This document shows positions 147-36,699 of a DNA stretch of 36,994 nt, one piece after another. The DNA lies in IMG/VR virus record IMGVR_UViG_3300030117_002013, positions 1 to 36,994 of that record; one strand, written 5' to 3'. Within the stretch, counting starts at the first letter, position 1, and every line of letters starts with the position of its first letter. Both the position numbers and the translations under genes were made by a program. The notes beneath the pieces are model-generated. The model saw only the letters and a program-made list of their open reading frames with translations. It was not told where the DNA came from and did no database searches. The stretch is from a virus.

Positions 147-1868
147 GTGCAACCCTTACCAGAGAAACTACAAGACTTTAGATACTTTCTAATTCTTACT
201 TGGAGGCATTTAAACCTTCCTGATCCAACACCAGTACAACTAGAAATAGCTGAATACCTTCAACACGGTCCACGTAGAAAAATTATTCAAGCCTTTAGAG
301 GTGTAGGTAAAAGTTGGATTACTTCTGCCTATGTGGTGTGGAAGTTACGAATGGATCCACAACTAAAGTTCCTTGTGGTTTCAGCTTCAAAAGATAGAGC
401 AGATAATTTCTCTACTTTCACAATGAGACTAATAACCGAAATGGATATATTAGCTCCACTACGTCCAGATGCCTCTCAGAGGAACAGTAAGATAAGTTTT
501 GATGTAAGACCAGCAAGAGCTGATCATGCCCCTTCTGTGAAGTCTGTAGGGGTCTTAGGGCAAATGGCTGGTAGTAGGGCAGATGAAGTAGTAGCAGATG
601 ACGTAGAAGTTCCTAATAACTCCTTCACCCAACCGATGAGAGACAAACTCTCTGAAGCAGTTAAAGAATTTGACGCAATACTTAAACCTAATGGAAAGAT
701 TTGTTTCCTTGGTACTCCTCAAACAGAACAATCTCTTTATGGAACATTAGAAGAACGAGGATATAACACCTGCATCTGGCCTGCTAGATACCCACCCCTT
801 AGAAATAATTATGGAGATAGACTTGCTCCTAAACTTCACCAGAGGCTCCTAGATGAGCTTGTAAGCCCTAAAGATCCTGTTGACCCAGATAGATTCAACA
901 ACATAGATCTAATGGAACGTGAGGCCTCCTATGGACGTTCTGGGTTCTCTTTACAGTTTATGTTGGATACTTCCCTATCCGACCAAGATAGATACCCTCT
1001 AAAACTCTCAGATTTAATAATTTCATCAGTTAATCCAGAACATGCTCCAGAAAAAGTTATCTGGTCTAACTCTCCTGAATACACTCTTCCAGATCTCCCT
1101 TGCGTAGGTTTTAACGGAGACAGGTACTACAGACCTGCTCAAGAATTTGGTGATTGGATTGAATATACAGGTTCAGTTATGTCCATAGACCCCTCTGGAA
1201 AGGGTAAAGATGCTACTGGCTATGCAATCGTAAAGATGCTTAATGGAAACCTCTTTGTAAGCGATGCCGGAGGCCTTATAGGTGGTTACGACGAAGCAGT
1301 ACTGACTAAATTATCTAAACTTGCTAGAGATCACAAAGTAAACACCATCCTCGTTGAAGAAAACTTCGGAGGAGGAATGTTTGCTGAACTTCTTAAACCA
1401 TACTTAATGCGTTATCACCCTTGTGAAGTAGAAAACGTCAGAAATAACAAAACTAAAGAGTTCAGAATCATTGACACCTTAGAACCTGTAATGAACTCTC
1501 ATCGACTAATCATTGACAGAAAGATCGTTGAAAAAGACTATCGCTCTAATCCTAATGAAGCTCCAGAAAGAAAGCTAAAACTTCAACTCTTCTATCAAAT
1601 GTCCCGTATAACACGTCATAAAGGCTCTTTAGTACATGATGACATCCTTGATGCTTTATCTGGTGCAGTCTCCTATTGGACTGACTACATGTCTGCTGAT
1701 GAAGATAGAAACATCCAATCCAGAAAAGATGAACTCCTAAGACTTCACCTAGATAACTGGGGGTCCTCCCTTAATAAAACTATTACCCAAACAGCACTAG
1801 GTATGACACTTGAACAAATAAGACAAACTGATACCTCAGACACCTCATTTATAAGCTCCGATTATTAA
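147..1868 (+). CDS. Large terminase subunit (DNA maturase B, T7 gp19-like), copy A
   Basis: This is the ATP-driven packaging motor and nuclease that fills the prohead and cuts concatemers. The 573 residues are close to the 586 of T7 gp19 and align by eye over nearly the whole length. A Walker A motif RGVGKS lies at 51-56, a Walker B-like VVADDVE around 148-154 with acidic pair D151-D152, and the nuclease-domain SIDPSGKGKD around 346-355 with D348. The segments LGTPQTE and HDDILDAL also match the family. The start is GTG at 147, one base after the small terminase stop; the second copy at 36844 uses ATG at the same place, which supports this choice. It is the last gene before the repeat-rich junction. 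Confidence 0.97.
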   Translation: MQPLPEKLQDFRYFLILTWRHLNLPDPTPVQLEIAEYLQHGPRRKIIQAFRGVGKSWITSAYVVWKLRMDPQLKFLVVSASKDRADNFSTFTMRLITEMDILAPLRPDASQRNSKISFDVRPARADHAPSVKSVGVLGQMAGSRADEVVADDVEVPNNSFTQPMRDKLSEAVKEFDAILKPNGKICFLGTPQTEQSLYGTLEERGYNTCIWPARYPPLRNNYGDRLAPKLHQRLLDELVSPKDPVDPDRFNNIDLMEREASYGRSGFSLQFMLDTSLSDQDRYPLKLSDLIISSVNPEHAPEKVIWSNSPEYTLPDLPCVGFNGDRYYRPAQEFGDWIEYTGSVMSIDPSGKGKDATGYAIVKMLNGNLFVSDAGGLIGGYDEAVLTKLSKLARDHKVNTILVEENFGGGMFAELLKPYLMRYHPCEVENVRNNKTKEFRIIDTLEPVMNSHRLIIDRKIVEKDYRSNPNEAPERKLKLQLFYQMSRITRHKGSLVHDDILDALSGAVSYWTDYMSADEDRNIQSRKDELLRLHLDNWGSSLNKTITQTALGMTLEQIRQTDTSDTSFISSDY

Positions 1869-2639: not shown

Positions 2640-2713
2640 GGTATTGGATAGGGCTAGACAGCTATCAAATAGAGATATAATTAAATCAGCTATTAAGTTT
2701 AGTAGTTCTTTAG

Positions 2714-2735
2714 AGCTACATCTGACCTGGTAGCT
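2714..2735 (+). promoter_or_regulatory. Leader hairpin before the first early gene
   Basis: AGCTAC (2714-2719) pairs perfectly with GTAGCT (2730-2735) across a ten-base loop. It is followed after a short spacer by CCCAGAGAACC and the AT-rich tract that leads into the ATG at 2761. The position matches that of the hairpins before later early genes, although its sequence is not of the same family. Confidence 0.4.
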
Positions 2736-2760
2736 AGTCCCAGAGAACCTTTTAAAACTT

Positions 2761-2982
2761 ATGAACAACTTCTACATTGTCAAGCATTGGCAAGATGAAT
2801 CAAGACTTATCCAAACTGTTGAAAGACGTATGGCAGAGCTTGACAACGAACTTGCCGCAAGATGTCACAAAATAATAGATAGCATTAGACCAGTTGGTAG
2901 TGATGCTAGATATTGTTTTTATGATCGTGACAGCTTAGAAGCAACCAACCTGGAACACATTAAAAAAGAAGTGTTTAACTAA
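2761..2982 (+). CDS. Early protein of unknown function (73 aa)
   Basis: This is the first gene of the early cassette. It encodes a small soluble protein with a probable helical middle (residues about 18-42, from VERRMAELDNEL onward) and two cysteines. I do not recognise a family. The ATG follows the AT-rich leader TTTTAAAACTT and has no Shine-Dalgarno sequence, as for the other early-cassette genes. The repeated hairpin element begins five bases after its stop. In T7-like phages genes in this position are made first from host promoters and often act on host proteins; that role here is only inferred from position. Confidence 0.75.
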   Translation: MNNFYIVKHWQDESRLIQTVERRMAELDNELAARCHKIIDSIRPVGSDARYCFYDRDSLEATNLEHIKKEVFN

Positions 2983-2986
2983 TTAT

Positions 2987-3032
2987 CCTATGGAGTCCTT
3001 TCAGGAGGATTCCACAGGGTATTTATTACCCT
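2987..3032 (+). repeat. Early intergenic double-hairpin element, copy 1
   Basis: Stem 1 pairs CCTATGGAGTCC (2987-2998) with GGATTCCACAGG (3007-3018), with one A-C mismatch, one G-U pair and an eight-base loop. Stem 2 pairs AGGGTA (3016-3021) with TACCCT (3027-3032). AGG at 3016-3018 is claimed by both stems. The outer stem sequence recurs in copies 2 and 3; the inner stem differs but stays paired. Confidence 0.8.
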
Positions 3033-3056
3033 TTAACAACTGAACCTTTAAAATTT

Positions 3057-3437
3057 ATGACTACTTCTTCAAAAGAGAAGATGTATCAACAGATAGAAAA
3101 GCATGGAGAAGACTTAAAAGTTATTTTCAAGCTTCCTACTGATGTTGATTCAATCAAGTTGTGTAAGCAGCTTTTTAGACTAGAGAATAAAGCCCACCAA
3201 TTAGCAGAAGATGACTACAACGGCATTGATGTAAATGCTGAAGTAGAACAAGTTTTTAAAAGTGTTTGCAAGGTTTTAAACCTTAAAAACATTAAAGACT
3301 TTAAAATCTTTTGGAATAATGATCCCAGGGGTTATGCCTTAAAGATTGATGATGAATTTGTATTTAAAAACAAATTACAAATACATCGTGACTGGGGGGG
3401 TAATGGAATTTTAGCTCCTAATTTTTCTGAATCATGA
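3057..3437 (+). CDS. Early cyanophage-type protein of unknown function (126 aa)
   Basis: A soluble protein whose N-terminal half (EKMYQQIEKHGEDL, then KLCKQLFRLENKAHQLA at about 36-52) looks helical and whose C-terminal half carries DPRGYALKI and DWGGNGILAPNF. From memory, proteins with the DPRGYALKI and DWGG-GI-APDF pattern are widespread among marine cyanophages with no assigned role; I could not check this. The ATG has no Shine-Dalgarno and follows the AT-rich leader CCTTTAAAATTT after hairpin copy 1. It overlaps the next gene by ATGA, implying translational coupling. Confidence 0.88.
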   Translation: MTTSSKEKMYQQIEKHGEDLKVIFKLPTDVDSIKLCKQLFRLENKAHQLAEDDYNGIDVNAEVEQVFKSVCKVLNLKNIKDFKIFWNNDPRGYALKIDDEFVFKNKLQIHRDWGGNGILAPNFSES

Positions 3438-3631
3438 CTAAATCAACTCTAGTCTTATCAACTGATAATGCTGCCTTTGAAGGTGAGAATCTAGGTCCAG
3501 AGATAGCAAGGATTTTAAAATCTTATGCTCATGCTATTAGGGAAGTAAAAGACCCTGAGAGTCAATGGGAACTAGAAAGCAGGCTAAGAGACATTAATGG
3601 TAATACCGTTGGTTCTGTTAGTCACAGTTAA
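3434..3631 (+). CDS. Early protein of unknown function (65 aa)
   Basis: A small acidic soluble protein starting at the ATG within the ATGA overlap with the preceding gene (3434-3437), so it is probably translated by coupling. The region around residues 21-50 (ILKSYAHAIREVKDPESQWE) looks helical. I recognise no family. The double-hairpin element starts directly after its stop. Confidence 0.72.
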   Translation: MTKSTLVLSTDNAAFEGENLGPEIARILKSYAHAIREVKDPESQWELESRLRDINGNTVGSVSHS

Positions 3632-3632
3632 T

Positions 3633-3680
3633 CCTATGGAGCCTCTTAAGGGAGGTTCCACAGGCTTATCTAATAAGCCT
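3633..3680 (+). repeat. Early intergenic double-hairpin element, copy 2
   Basis: Stem 1 pairs CCTATGGAGCCTC (3633-3645) with GAGGTTCCACAGG (3652-3664) with the same A-C mismatch and G-U pair as copy 1. Stem 2 pairs AGGCTTAT (3662-3669) with ATAAGCCT (3673-3680) across a three-base loop. The inner pairs CCTC/GAGG replace TCC/GGA of copy 1. Confidence 0.85.
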
Positions 3681-3706
3681 ATTAAGCCCCAGAAACTTAT
3701 TTACTT

Positions 3707-4063
3707 ATGACTGTTGCACAAGTTCCAACTAAACCAAAAGCTTTTGAAGTGGGTCAAATTTGTTATTGCGATGGAGGTTGCACCATGCAATTACCTACTT
3801 TTTATAAAGTGGTAAGGCTTTCTAAATCTTCTGTATGGCTACAAGAGATTCATAATCAACTTGTAGAACATGATGGGTATGGTCAAAGAGGAAGGAAACT
3901 TCCAGTAGATCAACCAAAGGGCGAGGTATTTAGAAAGGTCATTAAAAACTGGAAAGACTCAAAGAGTTATAAAGGTGATGACCAACAATATGCCTACGAG
4001 AAATACTGGGGAATTATTGAGCCTTGGGATGGTTTAGCAAAAACTTATGACTCAATGGATTGA
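3707..4063 (+). CDS. Early protein of unknown function (118 aa)
   Basis: The protein has a cysteine group near the N terminus (CYCDGGC at about 19-25), aromatic-rich stretches and a basic central segment (GRKLPVDQPKGEVFRKVIKNW). It has no membrane segment or signal peptide. I do not recognise the family. The start is the ATG after the AT-rich leader AAACTTATTTACTT with no Shine-Dalgarno, in register with the other early genes. It sits between hairpin copies 2 and 3. Confidence 0.82.
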   Translation: MTVAQVPTKPKAFEVGQICYCDGGCTMQLPTFYKVVRLSKSSVWLQEIHNQLVEHDGYGQRGRKLPVDQPKGEVFRKVIKNWKDSKSYKGDDQQYAYEKYWGIIEPWDGLAKTYDSMD

Positions 4064-4067
4064 TGAT

Positions 4068-4112
4068 CCTATGGAGGGCGTAAGCCTTCCACAGGCTCTT
4101 CTAATAGAGTCT
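4068..4112 (+). repeat. Early intergenic double-hairpin element, copy 3
   Basis: Stem 1 pairs CCTATGGAGGGC (4068-4079) with GCCTTCCACAGG (4084-4095) around a GTAA loop, a GNRA-type tetraloop in RNA. Stem 2 pairs AGGCTCT (4093-4099) with AGAGTCT (4106-4112), including a G-U pair. The outer stem is identical to copies 1 and 2; the inner stem is GGC/GCC. Confidence 0.87.
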
Positions 4113-4139
4113 TAAGTTAACCTGAGTATCTTTTAACTA

Positions 4140-4304
4140 ATGGAAGAAAAGCAACTTTTTAAAGCTTATGGAATTTCTTTAACAGGTAATACTGCTGAAG
4201 AATATCAGAAGCAGATTGAAAAGGATTATCGGAACTTATCCGATAAGGAATATGAAGCTGCACAAGCTTATGAAGCTGACGCTTGGATCTTTAACGAGAT
4301 CTAA
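4140..4304 (+). CDS. Small early protein of unknown function (54 aa)
   Basis: Read directly from the sequence: ATG at 4140, TAA at 4302-4304. The product starts MEEKQLFKAYGIS and ends DAWIFNEI; it is acidic and probably helical (EEYQKQIEKDYRNL, then DKEYEAAQAYEADAW). It is flanked by hairpin copies 3 and 4 and preceded by the AT-rich leader ATCTTTTAACTA. This is exactly the spacing of its neighbours, which is the main reason for calling such a short frame a gene. Confidence 0.7.
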   Translation: MEEKQLFKAYGISLTGNTAEEYQKQIEKDYRNLSDKEYEAAQAYEADAWIFNEI

Positions 4305-4313
4305 ATAGATGAT

Positions 4314-4360
4314 CCTCTAAAGGGCCTACGGGCCTTTTATAGGCTTTTCTTAAAGCCTAT
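4314..4360 (+). repeat. Early intergenic double-hairpin element, copy 4 (variant)
   Basis: Stem 1 pairs CCTCTAAAGGGCC (4314-4326) with GGCCTTTTATAGG (4331-4343) around TACG, a UNCG-type tetraloop. The fourth pair is again a mismatch (C-T) and the G-U pair is again at the ninth position. Stem 2 pairs ATAGGCTTT (4339-4347) with AAAGCCTAT (4352-4360). GG to AA on the 5' side is matched by CC to TT on the 3' side relative to copies 1-3. Confidence 0.87.
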
Positions 4361-4379
4361 TACAACTGATTTATTACTT

Positions 4380-4595
4380 ATGTATTTTGATCGCTTCGAT
4401 ATAGTGGAAGCCTATCATCTTTGGTTTTCTCACTATTATTCAGGGTTTGATTCTAATTATTGTCGTAGATGTCGAATTGAAACTAATTTAAAATTTAGTC
4501 CTAGCCTTTCTCACAGTTATGAACACTTAAGTGAAAATGGAAAGATGATCTATGACAATTTAGAAGAAAAGAAATTTGTATCTAGAGATTATTAA
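4380..4595 (+). CDS. Early phage protein of unknown function (71 aa), RFDIVEAYHLW type
   Basis: A small soluble protein beginning MYFDRFDIVEAYHLWFSHYY and containing LSENGKMIYDNL near its end. From memory this combination is found in a family of short early or host-takeover-region proteins across many phages, with no known role; not checked. It has a CRRC motif near residues 28-31. It is the last gene before the intrinsic terminator at 4607-4643, so it closes the first early transcription unit. Confidence 0.82.
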   Translation: MYFDRFDIVEAYHLWFSHYYSGFDSNYCRRCRIETNLKFSPSLSHSYEHLSENGKMIYDNLEEKKFVSRDY

Positions 4596-4606
4596 ATCTA
4601 GATTAT

Positions 4607-4643
4607 AGAGACCATAAAAACCTATGGTCTCTCTCTTTTTTTT
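4607..4643 (+). terminator. Rho-independent terminator closing the first early unit
   Basis: AGAGACCATA (4607-4616) pairs perfectly with TATGGTCTCT (4623-4632) across a six-base loop, and eight T follow at 4636-4643 after CTC. It separates the hairpin-punctuated cassette from the block leading to the RNA polymerase. Confidence 0.92.
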
Positions 4644-4685
4644 GTTTCTATTGCTTCAAAGGTATATATATCCCTGGCTCAAATC

Positions 4686-4712
4686 TTGACGGTTCCCTTA
4701 AGCGTTTTTAAT
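4686..4712 (+). promoter_or_regulatory. Candidate host-type promoter for the RNA polymerase block
   Basis: TTGACG at 4686-4691 and TTTAAT at 4707-4712 resemble bacterial -35 and -10 boxes, but the spacer is only 15 bases. The position just after a strong terminator and before a run of tightly packed genes ending in the phage RNA polymerase makes a host promoter likely somewhere here. Confidence 0.35.
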
Positions 4713-4718
4713 GTTTAA

Positions 4719-4738
4719 TGGAGCTCTCATGAGTTCCA
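4719..4738 (+). repeat. Short member of the early hairpin family (copy 5)
   Basis: TGGAGCTC (4719-4726) pairs with GAGTTCCA (4731-4738) around TCAT. It keeps the TGGAG/TTCCA core of copies 1-3, including the G-U pair, with inner pairs CTC/GAG. It lacks the CCT/AGG base and the second stem. The same leader type (CCCAGAAATCTTTTTACAA) follows before the next ATG. Confidence 0.7.
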
Positions 4739-4763
4739 AAAAGACCCAGAAATCTTTTTACAA

Positions 4764-4925
4764 ATGAAACACAAAATCACTATGGCCTCTAATAAGGCCG
4801 AGATAATCGACAGTGCTCTTGAGATTATTGATAGTCAAGAGGGGGAGTTAAGTACCTTGCGTCAAAGGCAAGTTATCTTAATATCCCTGGCTGGATTTTT
4901 CTTTCTTCTCTATATGGTTTTTTAG
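4764..4925 (+). CDS. Small single-pass membrane protein (53 aa)
   Basis: Read directly: ATG at 4764, TAG at 4923-4925. The N-terminal two-thirds is polar and probably helical (NKAEIIDSALEIIDSQEGEL, then RQRQ) and the last 16 residues (VILISLAGFFFLLYMVF) form one membrane segment, so it is tail-anchored in topology. It is the first gene after the terminator and hairpin copy 5. The next gene starts two bases after its stop. Function unknown. Confidence 0.72.
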   Translation: MKHKITMASNKAEIIDSALEIIDSQEGELSTLRQRQVILISLAGFFFLLYMVF

Positions 4926-4927
4926 TT

Positions 4928-5161
4928 ATGGAAATTAGACAATGCTCTTCCATTCCTATTACTTCCTTAATTGGATCTTTAGCTATATGGGAAGAATGTG
5001 AAATGGGTTATGTCATGGGCATATCTATTTCACTAGATAAACCACATCACATAATGGTGGACATTATGGATGAAGAAACAAAAGAACATCACTCAAGCTG
5101 CCCAGTAAAAGACTGGGATAAGTGGAGTTTTCAACTTAGAGGACATCCACATCATGCTTAA
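4928..5161 (+). CDS. Protein of unknown function (77 aa)
   Basis: A small protein with several cysteines (C6, C24, C59) and a histidine-rich C terminus (GHPHHA). I do not recognise a family and see no membrane segment. It overlaps the next gene by eight bases, within a compact block (4764-8211) in which adjacent genes touch or overlap, suggesting a single transcript leading to the RNA polymerase. Confidence 0.72.
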   Translation: MEIRQCSSIPITSLIGSLAIWEECEMGYVMGISISLDKPHHIMVDIMDEETKEHHSSCPVKDWDKWSFQLRGHPHHA

Positions 5162-5426
5162 GTGTCCTAACTGCAAGTCCAATAGCATCTCTTCTTCTGG
5201 AGGAGGTGCTGTTGTGCTTAATACACGTAATAAGGGTGAAACTCCTTATCTAAAACGTAAGAGGCTTTGTAAAGCATGTAAGACTGCTTTCACAACTCAA
5301 GAATGGGAAGCAGGGGAACTTCAAAAAGTTCTTTATAAATCTTTTAATGAGGTGGATTTAATTTCATTAGCAGAAGAAATGAAAGCAATTCTTAAAGACC
5401 TACAAACACTAAAGGAGGAAAACTAA
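5154..5426 (+). CDS. Zinc-ribbon protein (90 aa)
   Basis: The N terminus carries CPNC (4-7) and a second knuckle CKAC (about 40-43), with basic residues between (YLKRKRL), the spacing of a zinc ribbon similar to that of NrdR-type or transcription-related ribbons. The C-terminal third is helical and charged. A nucleic-acid or RNA-polymerase contact is plausible for a zinc ribbon made early, but no partner is shown. It overlaps the next start at base 5426 (the final A of TAA is the A of ATG) and AAAGGAGG lies just upstream, one of the clearer Shine-Dalgarno sites here. Confidence 0.8.
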   Translation: MLKCPNCKSNSISSSGGGAVVLNTRNKGETPYLKRKRLCKACKTAFTTQEWEAGELQKVLYKSFNEVDLISLAEEMKAILKDLQTLKEEN

Positions 5427-5617
5427 TGTCAATTAACAAAGAACAATTCCAAGGCATTTCTAACAAAGTTAAGGAGTGTCTAAACATCCTTTCTGAACTC
5501 CCAGATAGTGAAAAAAAACAGTTAGCTATTCTTATGGTGGCTAATACTTTAAGTCCTAAGTTTGCTGCTGAAACAGCGAATTTTATGCTTGACTTAGATA
5601 AGTGGGAGAATGTTTAA
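5426..5617 (+). CDS. Small helical protein of unknown function (63 aa)
   Basis: A soluble, mostly helical protein (KVKECLNILSELP, then SEKKQLAILMVANTL and FAAETANFMLDLDKW). The ATG shares a base with the preceding stop and has an upstream AGGAGG. The next gene begins immediately after its TAA. I recognise no family. Confidence 0.75.
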   Translation: MSINKEQFQGISNKVKECLNILSELPDSEKKQLAILMVANTLSPKFAAETANFMLDLDKWENV

Positions 5618-5812
5618 GTGTCTTATTACTCATTTAGTAGCTCTCTTCCTAAAAAGCTTTATGTTATTAAGATTTCTGATTCTAATTCTGAACCAGGAGT
5701 CAGGACTGAATTAATTACTGCTACTTCTGCAAAGAAAGCAGTAGAAAAAGCTAGACATCAATGGCCTGAAGCAGAAGGAATGATGGTGGTTGATAGTAGA
5801 GATTTGATATGA
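5618..5812 (+). CDS. Small protein of unknown function (64 aa), GTG start
   Basis: It starts with GTG directly after the preceding TAA and ends in an ATGA overlap with the RNA polymerase gene (5809-5812). The sequence has a strand-helix-strand look (LYVIKISDSN, then AKKAVEKARHQWPEA and MMVVDSRDLI), which fits a small mixed fold of the kind seen in short phage proteins. No family is recognised. The tight coupling suggests co-translation with the polymerase. Confidence 0.75.
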   Translation: MSYYSFSSSLPKKLYVIKISDSNSEPGVRTELITATSAKKAVEKARHQWPEAEGMMVVDSRDLI

Positions 5813-8211
5813 ATCCAGCCCAGATTCAGATTCAAATAGAAAACGAAATGGAGTCAAGAGGCATTGATTCCTACCGTAAAAAAATACAAACAAACATTGA
5901 GAAGGGAAGAGCTTCAGACAATAGCTATGCAGTTCATCTGATTAAGGCAGGCTTACAACCTTTGTCTGACGAAATACAAAAATTTGTTGATAGAGCTTGG
6001 AGAGGTAAGCCAGGTCCAAAAGCTATTTCTGCTAAAATCCTTCAACAATTTCCTAATCCAGATGTAGTTGCATACATCACTTGGAAAGCTGTACTTGATT
6101 TAGTTAGTAGTGAAAAAGCTACTGCTACTGCTGTATCTATTAAGATTGGAAGTCTTCTTGAAGATGAACTTAGGTTTTCTGTCTTTGAACAGAAAGATCC
6201 TAACTTTTTTAATACCTTAAAAAATCACATATCAGATACCAAGCATCCAGGGTATAGACGAACCATGATGCTTGGTCATATGCGTAATTATGGGTATGAG
6301 TTTGAAAAGTGGAGTAAAGAAGACAAGTTAAGAGTTGGATTAAAACTCATTGAATTATTAATGCACTCAGTTGGCCTAGTAAAGATGGCAACTAGAGGAA
6401 ACTTCCATAACAAAACAAGAAAGACCTACCTTGAATTTACAGAGGAGGCTATGAACTGGATAAAGAGACAAAAGAGCAGCAGATTAGCTGCTTATCCTTT
6501 GCTAATGCCTTGTCTGATTAAACCTAGAGACTGGCCTGATGGTGGTTTCTATTCAGAAAGGTTGAGAAGAATCAAGGAAGTAAAAACTGCTGACACTATT
6601 TATCTAAATGATTTAAGGAATAAGAAACCAACAGCTTTTTATGAAGCTCTTAATGCGTTGCAAAGTACGGAATGGGGAGTTAATGAAAAGGTTTTAGAGA
6701 TTGCTAATTACTGTTGGAATACAAATACTTCTGTTGGTTGCTTGATAGATGCTGAACCTGAACCTTTACCACCTAAACCATTTGACATAGCAAAGAATGA
6801 AGTTGCTAGGAAGAAATGGAGAAGAGAAGCTTCTATTATCCATGACCTAAATGCACATAACAGGGCTAAACGTTTTCAGTGTCTGATGATGCTTGATACA
6901 GGTGAAAAGTTTAGCGATGGTTCTTTTTGGCATGTAGCACAAGCTGATTTCACAGGACGACTTTATTCAGTCTCTGGTACCTTTAATCCTCAGACAACAG
7001 ATTTATCTAGGGGTCTTCATCACTTTAAAGAAGGAGGTCCAATTAAGAATAAAAAAGATGCTGACTGGTTAGGTATTGCTGGAGCAAATCACTGGGGATT
7101 GAGCAAAAAAAGCTTTGAAGAAAGAATTGAATGGGCATATAACGAAGGAAAACATATAGCTATAGATGTAGCTGGTAATCCTGAAGGATATGTAGGTCTT
7201 TGGTCTAAAGCTGATGAACCTTTTCAATTCTTTGCTTGGTGTCTTGAGTGGAATCAGTATCACGAAGAAGGATTTGGTTTCATTAGCCGTCATCCTGTGT
7301 TGCTTGATGGTAGTAATAATGGATTTCAACATTTTGCTGCTTTAACGCTTGATAAAGATCTTGCCACCTCTGTTAATCTTCTTGCTTCTGAAGAACCACA
7401 AGATCTATATGACGATATAAGAACAAACTTAATACTTAATCTTGAAAATAGTGATAGTAATTATGCAAAAGATTGGTTTAATCACAAGGAATTAATCACA
7501 AGGAAACTAGTTAAAAAGCCTGTAATGATGATTCCTTATAGTGGAACTGTTTATGGTATAGCTAATACTGTAAAAGATTATGTTGTAAAAGAAAAGATAG
7601 AATTTCCTTGGGGTTCAGATAGTTTTAAACATTATCATTCTCTTGCTATAAATATAAAAGAATCAGTAGATAATATATGTCCTACTGCATCTAAGATTAT
7701 GAATTATTTAAATAAAATTGCTAGATGTTTTGCCAAAGAAGGTAAAGCAATAGAATGGACAACACCTTCTGGTTTTTTTGTTAAACAAAGTTATTTTACT
7801 ACTAAACGTAAAAGAATAGAGACTAAGCTCGGTTACAGCAGAATAGATATATCACTTCAAGAAAATACAAGCCAGATAAATAAAAAGAAAACAACACAAA
7901 GCTTTCCTGCTAATTTTATTCATAGTTTAGATGCTGCTAATGTTCATTTAGCATTACAAAAAGCAAAAGCAAAAGGATTAAATCAATTTACAACTATCCA
8001 TGATTGTTTTGGTGCTCCTGCTTCAGATATAGAAGATTTTATTAACTGTGCTAAAGAAAGTTTTGTAGAGATTTATCAAGACTATGTGTTAGATGAATTA
8101 TATAACCAAGCAGCCAAACAATTAAAAGATCCTAGTAAATTACCATCACCACTAGATATGGGAGAATTACATATTAATGAAGTTATGTTTTCTCCTTATG
8201 TATTTTCTTGA
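5809..8211 (+). CDS. Single-subunit DNA-directed RNA polymerase (T7 gp1-like)
   Basis: This enzyme would transcribe the middle and late phage genes from phage promoters. The 800 residues compare with 883 in T7. Motif A is LLDGSNNGFQHF with catalytic D500. Motif B starts R565 with K569 and Y577 at the exact spacing of T7 R627, K631 and Y639. Motif C is TIHDCFG with H731 and D732. The N-terminal region is shorter than in T7, and the stretch around GYRRTMMLGHM and the segment RFQCLMML are typical. It overlaps the preceding gene by ATGA. I could not define a repeated phage promoter by eye, so its recognition sequence is unknown. Confidence 0.97.
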   Translation: MNPAQIQIQIENEMESRGIDSYRKKIQTNIEKGRASDNSYAVHLIKAGLQPLSDEIQKFVDRAWRGKPGPKAISAKILQQFPNPDVVAYITWKAVLDLVSSEKATATAVSIKIGSLLEDELRFSVFEQKDPNFFNTLKNHISDTKHPGYRRTMMLGHMRNYGYEFEKWSKEDKLRVGLKLIELLMHSVGLVKMATRGNFHNKTRKTYLEFTEEAMNWIKRQKSSRLAAYPLLMPCLIKPRDWPDGGFYSERLRRIKEVKTADTIYLNDLRNKKPTAFYEALNALQSTEWGVNEKVLEIANYCWNTNTSVGCLIDAEPEPLPPKPFDIAKNEVARKKWRREASIIHDLNAHNRAKRFQCLMMLDTGEKFSDGSFWHVAQADFTGRLYSVSGTFNPQTTDLSRGLHHFKEGGPIKNKKDADWLGIAGANHWGLSKKSFEERIEWAYNEGKHIAIDVAGNPEGYVGLWSKADEPFQFFAWCLEWNQYHEEGFGFISRHPVLLDGSNNGFQHFAALTLDKDLATSVNLLASEEPQDLYDDIRTNLILNLENSDSNYAKDWFNHKELITRKLVKKPVMMIPYSGTVYGIANTVKDYVVKEKIEFPWGSDSFKHYHSLAINIKESVDNICPTASKIMNYLNKIARCFAKEGKAIEWTTPSGFFVKQSYFTTKRKRIETKLGYSRIDISLQENTSQINKKKTTQSFPANFIHSLDAANVHLALQKAKAKGLNQFTTIHDCFGAPASDIEDFINCAKESFVEIYQDYVLDELYNQAAKQLKDPSKLPSPLDMGELHINEVMFSPYVFS

Positions 8212-36081: not shown

Positions 36082-36699
36082 TTGAAAGTTTTAGTTGCTT
36101 GTGAATACTCAGGAAGAGTCCGTGATGCTTTCATTGCACAAGGCCATGACGCAATCTCTTGTGATCTGCTTCCTACTGAGTCTGACGGTCCCCATTATCA
36201 AGGAGATGTAACAGACATTCTTAATGATGGTTTTGACCTGATGGTGGCTCATCCACCTTGTACTCATCTAGCAGTAAGTGGTAGTAGACATTTTTGGCGT
36301 AAAGAAAAAGAACAAAAAGAAGCTCTTGATTTTGTAAGACTGTTAATGAACGCACCAATTAAAAGATGGTGTATAGAAAATCCTGTCAGTGTAATTAGTT
36401 CTTGTATTAGACCACCAGATCAAATAATTCAACCTTGGGAATTTGGTCATGAAGCACAAAAGACAACATGCCTTTGGTTGAAAAATTTAAACAGACTAAA
36501 ACCAACCAAACGAGTAGCAAAAGGTGAGTTTTGTATAACTAAAGGAGGAAATAAATTACCTGCTTGGTATAGCAACGCTAATGCAAAAGTTAGAAGTGCA
36601 ACTTTTCAAGGAATTGCAGATGCAATGGGTAATCAATGGGGAAATGAATCAAAATTACCAACTCCAATTGAACAACTTTGTTTACTATTAACAGCATGA
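36082..36699 (+). CDS. Cytosine-C5 DNA methyltransferase-like protein (205 aa), TTG start
   Basis: The start is TTG at 36082 after the small terminase. Motifs of C5-methyltransferases are visible in order: an SAM-binding VACEYSG (5-11), CDLLPTESDGPH, the catalytic-loop equivalent HPPCT with C60, and IENP (98-101). The protein is much shorter than typical C5 enzymes (300 or more residues) and has no clear target-recognition domain. This matches a compact phage family that I recall as annotated methyltransferases with little biochemistry. It could protect phage DNA from restriction. It is absent from the other terminase copy in this window, so it is an accessory gene. Confidence 0.85.
   Translation: MKVLVACEYSGRVRDAFIAQGHDAISCDLLPTESDGPHYQGDVTDILNDGFDLMVAHPPCTHLAVSGSRHFWRKEKEQKEALDFVRLLMNAPIKRWCIENPVSVISSCIRPPDQIIQPWEFGHEAQKTTCLWLKNLNRLKPTKRVAKGEFCITKGGNKLPAWYSNANAKVRSATFQGIADAMGNQWGNESKLPTPIEQLCLLLTA

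Follow-up and report, generated by a model that had tools for sequence, protein, structure and literature searches.

Strand-sharing RNA hairpins repeated at the early gene borders of a T7-like phage and its relatives

What are the hairpins that recur between the early genes of a T7-like phage, and what could they do there? The stretch that raises this question is the IMG/VR virus record IMGVR_UViG_3300030117_002013, analysed over its 36,994 bases (the window), in which the gene order is that of a T7-like phage. Five copies of one element were found, all upstream of the phage RNA polymerase gene and placed between early genes (Table 1). An earlier sequence-only reading of the window had described four full copies and a shorter one and had proposed that selection acts on their RNA structure. 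We are highly confident that they represent a selected sense-RNA element at the borders of gene cassettes.

Anatomy of the element and selection on its sense RNA

From 5' to 3', each element consists of strand A, the upper half of a first hairpin (H1), loop included, then strand B, a short loop and strand C; an A/U-rich leader and the start codon of the next gene follow. Strand B pairs either with A, which closes H1, or with C, which forms a second hairpin (H2), and the two pairings are mutually exclusive. Strand A is usually located at the stop codon of the preceding gene, and the lower stem of H1 often runs 2-4 pairs further outward than CCT/AGG. The sequence-only reading had reported a first stem with inner pairs that change and stay paired, a mismatch at pair 4 and a G.U at pair 9, and all of these features were present in four full copies at the places it gave. 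Its ranges ran to the end of H2, a hairpin that it had not described and whose 5' strand is also part of H1. Likewise, there is indeed a structure at 4719-4738, reported as a shorter copy, but it belongs, as H2, to a complete fifth element with its H1 at 4692-4724. That reading had thus seen H1 and overlooked both the competition of the hairpins for one strand and their place at gene-cassette boundaries.

Relatives were gathered by pattern scans and RNA-polymerase searches of IMG/VR, giving about 128 copies in 49 loci, nearly all from that database. The near clade comprises 21 loci and 66 copies with the window counted in (one of them, L068 2329, at chance level), and the far clade comprises 28 loci and 62 copies. 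The H1 stem of the near clade has a median of 14 base pairs (bp; range 11-17) with one mismatch, and the conserved irregularity sits 3-7 bp above the stem base. Pair 4, which separates the A:B helix from the upper stem, is A.C, A.C, A.C and C.U in copies 1 to 4 of the window and is unpaired in 62 of the 65 near-clade copies, nearly always as A.C, C.U or U.U. At pair 9 G.U predominates, and a G is on the 5' side in 61 of 65.

When the whole window was searched with a covariance model of the family (cmsearch), the four full copies were recovered at E values of 1e-13 to 1e-21, scores that are partly by construction since the model alignment contains these copies. The fifth copy was left out of that alignment and was the next best sense-strand match (4687-4768, E 9e-4); its stretch is kept in ten relatives with compensating changes. 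The remaining matches were at chance level or on the reverse strand of the same stems, and the latter were dismissed as extra copies because they merely reflect near-palindromic stems.

The five window copies fold better than their dinucleotide shuffles, with z values of -3.5 to -4.5. In an alignment of 32 distinct family members made from sequence without regard to structure, all 383 H1 cells were standard pairs, and six of the 12 pairs showed two-sided changes (68 cells), whereas slid registers reached at most 66% pairing. For H2 of the same alignment, 91% of cells were paired vs at most 77% in slid registers. Against a tree-based null, H1 pairs 3, 6, 7, 10 and 11 covaried at E<0.05 and no non-structural pair was significant. 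For this test and the A:B set test the register was picked to maximise H1 pairing, so the independent evidence for H1 is the former alignment (383/383); A:B pairing played no part in the choice. Gene swapping makes any one tree approximate for such a null. The outer A:B pairs were significant as a set (65 two-sided cells vs 16.6 expected, p=0.002), and none was individually significant (best E 0.4-0.7) save one far-clade pair at 0.04.

Both A and C covary with B. In the near clade the three strands occur as GAT-CCT/AGG-CTC/GAG-CCT, TAT-CCT/AGG-GTA/TAC-CCT, AAT-CCT/AGG-CTT/AAG-CCT, GAA-CCT/AGG-TTC/GAG-CCT and GAG-CCT/AGG-CTC/GAG-CCT. The A:B and B:C states of the near clade differ by 0.0 +/- 2.3 kcal/mol, and A:B is favoured by 2.3 +/- 2.1 kcal/mol in the far clade. 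The sense RNA folds better than the antisense RNA in 63 of 66 copies, with a mean advantage of 3.8 kcal/mol, an asymmetry that DNA cruciforms or antisense RNA would not produce. Pair conservation, covariation against the tree null, the A:B set test and the sense/antisense energies together strongly support the earlier proposal of selection on RNA structure.

The leaders of the family carry CCCAG or CAACTGA and have no clear Shine-Dalgarno sequence. The arrangement of CCCAG, an A/U-rich stretch and ATG, again without Shine-Dalgarno, was seen in the leaders of elements 2 and 5 and at window 2739-2761, the leader of the first early gene, which has no H1. A hairpin like TAGTAGTTCTTTAGAGCTAC precedes that gene (window 2698-2721) and recurs in three relatives (L034, L087 and L098) as an insert within or after H2.

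Gene cassettes, relatives and the window

The elements stay while the genes between them differ among phages. The 54-amino acid (aa) gene between elements 3 and 4 (4140-4304) has up to seven different downstream neighbours among the near relatives, and the 65-aa gene (3434-3631) has four. In 47 border pairs that share the upstream gene alone, identity was 0.89 upstream, 0.81-0.85 in H1, 0.75 in H2, 0.64 in the leader and 0.44 downstream; in 18 pairs that share the downstream gene alone it was 0.50 upstream and 0.77-0.92 from the element onward. The element is thus what both types of junction share, and it connects exchangeable genes. PHROGs, Pfam and PADLOC gave no function for the genes between elements, just families of unknown function. 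The string ATATCCCTRGC was seen inside the window gene 4764-4925 (at 4880-4895) and just before the first-position elements of two relatives (L072 4316 and L073 4506), perhaps as a relic of recombination. It was dropped as a phage promoter because the window has just two exact copies, one of them within a gene.

The switching of gene neighbours at the elements would also fit recombination sites or homology anchors for gene swaps at the DNA level, with hairpins that are incidental or formed in DNA. However, the stems change by compensation and not by sequence retention, which reduces homology, and the G.U at pair 9 and the energy gap between the strands point to selection on the transcribed strand. 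Covariation and strand asymmetry argue against DNA recombination sites as the whole story, and we consider this explanation quite improbable.

The sequence-only reading had named loss of the stems in homologous phages as evidence against it. Instead, the element was present in relatives whose RNA polymerases are about 85%, 65% and 55% identical to that of the window and in one case 47%, most far loci being at 54-58%. The search of related phages and the covariation test that it had proposed likewise gave matches in relatives and the five significant H1 pairs reported above. Convincing copies are confined to the early region and are on the same strand as the genes. Far-clade sequences are very different and the layout is the same (CCTATTAAGAATT...AATTTTTAACAGG; CCCTTAAAGCCTC...GAGGTTTTAAAGGG). 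In one relative (L072 8001-10401) the RNA polymerase gene does not read through in one frame, perhaps because of an assembly error.

The elements might be bound by a protein of the phage or the host that coordinates the early mRNAs, with the mismatch and the YNMG loops serving for recognition. Most copies retain an A.C, C.U or U.U mismatch, and by our count about 30 of the 66 loops match the pattern of the stable YNMG tetraloops. A CCC class of the far clade has a bulge in place of the mismatch, however, the loops vary widely, and no candidate protein was identified. We regard such a role as very unlikely.

The nearest isolate is the cultured Prochlorococcus phage P-SCSP2 (L160), whose terminase is 75.5% and RNA polymerase 43% identical to those of the window. 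It gave no match with the covariance model. Its first early gene is followed by a gap (36259-36307) that contains CTTTC...GAAAG...CTTTC with a strong inner hairpin, an A-B-C layout like that of the window in unrelated sequence, and none of 300 shuffles of its early region equalled it. Model searches of stretches of P-SCSP1u, P-RSP2, P-SSP7, HTVC019P, S46-C10 and T7 found no copies, and a direct nucleotide search of the region against the phage collection found no match. Bacterial genomes gave no match to a strict pattern. A looser pattern gave two, in unrelated taxa and about the number expected by chance, the better being a Spirochaetia match inside an open reading frame, and an origin of the element from the host was not supported. 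Other pattern matches outside the family lacked H2, lay on unrelated contigs and were treated as chance. No Rfam 15 family reached its gathering score, the relaxed threshold giving chance-level matches alone. A literature search found no earlier description of the element, most subscription papers being beyond its reach. The structured-RNA family is real and undescribed.

P-SCSP2 belongs to the MPP-C cyanopodoviruses, a clade described as being without DNA polymerase (PMC9860041). The window has the same order of RNA polymerase, single-stranded DNA-binding protein, primase-helicase, exonuclease and connector as P-SCSP2, and also codes for an endonuclease and for capsid and tail proteins. No DNA polymerase was found among the window proteins scanned. 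With its T7-like order, this absence and its nearest isolate in that clade, the window is MPP-C-like, and by kinship the host of the phage is likely a picocyanobacterium. Between the terminase and the first early gene (1869-2760), about 900 bases hold no convincing long gene and many CCTATAG-type repeats, and this is possibly the genome-end region.

Table 1. Positions of the elements, genes and other features in the window
Feature	Position	Strand	Remarks
Element 1, H1	2984..3021	+	Strand A TATCCT 5', strand B AGGGTA 3'; 1x1 A.C mismatch; fold -20.7 kcal/mol
Element 1, H2	3016..3032	+	B:C = AGGGTA/TACCCT
Leader of element 1	3033..3056	+	Unstructured, A/U-rich, between H2 and next start codon
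Element 2, H1	3633..3664	+	Covariance-model match
Element 2, H2	3662..3680	+	AGGCTTAT/ATAAGCCT
Element 3, H1	4065..4098	+	GUAA loop
Element 3, H2	4093..4112	+	AGGCTCT/AGAGTCT
Element 4, H1	4314..4343	+	UACG loop; GG/CC to AA/TT change; C.U mismatch
Element 4, H2	4339..4360	+	ATAGGCTTT/AAAGCCTAT
Element 5, H1	4692..4724	+	Sequence diverged (GTTCCCTTAAGCG...); model match 20.7 bits
Element 5, H2	4719..4738	+	Complete fifth element together with H1
Early gene before element 1	2761..2982	+	Ends 1 nucleotide before H1; function unknown
Two-gene cassette, elements 1-2	3057..3631	+	126 aa + 65 aa; the pair travels together in other phages
118-aa early gene, elements 2-3	3707..4063	+	Absent from other loci examined
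54-aa early gene, elements 3-4	4140..4304	+	In most near relatives; neighbours vary
71-aa early gene after element 4	4380..4595	+	Strong terminator next
Intrinsic terminator	4607..4640	+	10-bp stem, T-rich tail; closes shuffled early block just before RNA polymerase module
Large terminase	147-1868		
Early region of small genes	2761-5812		
RNA polymerase, single-subunit, T7-type	5809..8211	+	Marker for end of early region

Possible roles in the early transcript

As promoters, elements 1 to 4 were unsupported by the promoter scan: no sigma-70-type match falls on them, and the region holds 4 matches vs 12.2 expected. Element 5 overlaps a promoter-like TTGACG-17-TAATGT (window 4686-4714) that is kept in most relatives. 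If RNA started from it near 4721, the H2 of element 5 would sit at the extreme 5' end of the RNA polymerase message.

Nor do elements 1 to 4 look like terminators, since the scan calls none of them and yet finds the one at 4607, which is kept in several relatives. A milder version would have H2 and a few Ts act as weak intrinsic terminators that grade expression along the early operon, and TTTT does follow many near-clade H2 hairpins. The T run is gone, however, in window copies 2 to 4 and throughout the far clade (CCTTAACTGC, TCTATTGTCC), and H1 and strand A would be left unexplained. Weak termination therefore receives little of our belief.

Our preferred reading, to which we give a probability of roughly 0.45 and which we infer from sequence, is that the elements are mRNA punctuation working like the RNase III sites of T7, through cleavage or the protection of RNA ends, in the course of which A:B pairing gives way to B:C. 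Each element would be sense-strand punctuation that separates two early genes of one transcript. H1, closed by A:B, would be the hairpin that a host double-strand nuclease recognises, or else a barrier at the 3' end, and would then be cut or block 3' decay. Strand B would leave A and join C, forming an H2 that may cap the downstream message and shield its newly made 5' end, just before the A/U-rich region around the start. In this way each early gene would be a self-contained unit with a 5' cap hairpin and leader, a coding region and a 3' hairpin; such units would be interchangeable, so that the elements could double as recombination points for cassette swaps. Cutting and capping would explain why the hairpins share a strand, why they lie in the early region, why a leader follows and why the genes are interchangeable. 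Cyanobacteria have 1-3 RNase III enzymes plus Mini-III; the two RNase III enzymes found in Synechococcus PCC 7002 cleave many substrates of the E. coli enzyme, and P-SSP7 infection induces RNase E (PMC10989914).

Several observations weigh against this reading. As an RNase III substrate H1 would be rather short, and the T7 sites have larger internal loops in place of its 1x1 mismatch. P-SCSP2 has a single such element and none was found in the searched stretches of P-SCSP1u, so not all relatives need the system. Which of the A:B and B:C states is energetically better varies among copies. Finally, H1 often begins 1-12 nucleotides (nt) past a stop codon, so that terminating ribosomes would melt strand A, which is needless for pure processing.

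Because the upstream stop codon is so often within or just before strand A, the main rival is a switch gated by the ribosome. A ribosome ending the upstream gene would cover A and free B to form H2 with C, and A:B would form when that gene is untranslated; the state would set translation of, or transcription into, the next gene, and each gene would report on the translation of its neighbour. In 47 of 65 near-clade copies H1 follows the stop codon at a distance of 1-12 nt, and the stop is often inside strand A (TGATCC, TAATCC); the covariation of both A and C with B and the near-equal energies of the states are what a switch would predict. Nevertheless, the same fold occurs without a nearby stop in element 5 (75-98 nt) and in first-position elements (26-27 nt), and it is kept in many far-clade copies that lie about 70 nt from the stop according to automatic gene calls. 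Moreover, neither state masks the start region, and H2 has no terminator tail. We hold this switch to be unlikely. In its widest form, which we likewise find doubtful, bistable switches would follow most early genes throughout the phage, B choosing between the partner at the upstream stop and one ahead of the next gene; expression would be standardised and the genes exchangeable like plug-in parts, and at least one cultured Prochlorococcus phage would have arrived at the same architecture with unrelated sequence.

Relation to known systems

The early mRNA of T7 is cut by RNase III (Dunn and Studier 1973, as cited in PMC5371410). Like these T7 sites (R sites), the window elements are repeated irregular hairpins between early genes of a transcript made by the host RNA polymerase, upstream of or around the phage RNA polymerase gene. 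When refolded, the intercistronic early stretches of T7 gave irregular hairpins with stems about equal to H1 or slightly longer at the corresponding genomic place; the comparison drawn by the sequence-only reading was apt in position and hairpin size. There is no sequence kinship, however: the best T7 match to the model (7.8 bits, E 6.6) was not intercistronic, and the window family differs in its strand-sharing hairpins, its 1x1 mismatch and its early-only copies that mark swapped genes. Two strand-sharing hairpins are also possible in T7 (V01146, L166) at 836-886, just before gene 0.3, close to a known RNase III site; shuffles of T7 yield up to three strand-sharing matches, so this may be chance.

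In mutually exclusive RNA switches such as Trp-type attenuators, as in the window elements, a strand can pair with either of two others, and one of these lies near a translated stop codon. The window elements differ in that they have no terminator or leader peptide and occur in many copies per operon.

The promoter-early stem-loops (PeSLs) of T4-like phages (Arbiol 2010, Comeau 2014, known through PMC4503421) are short regulatory stem-loop cassettes repeated between the genes of a fast-shuffling early region. The window elements likewise lie at gene-swap boundaries of a hyperplastic early region. PeSLs join a promoter and a terminator, whereas elements 1 to 4 have neither; PeSLs also belong to another phage family, and the window family has two competing hairpins kept by compensation. 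The family is thus kin in kind to the T7 R sites in how it probably works and to the PeSLs in its location, and a tested member of neither.

What these results add is a family of structured RNAs, not described before, that recurs in marine T7-like phages and whose possible role in expressing and exchanging early host-takeover genes can be tested. Since nearly all genes between two copies are small and of unknown function, the elements also mark unknown early genes. The same layout in a cultured phage of Prochlorococcus MED4 opens the way to bench tests. A standard RNA connector at gene borders is a candidate answer to the question of how mosaic phages keep acquired genes properly expressed, and the elements appear to be punctuation that can be reused, allowing the phage to exchange genes that go on working.

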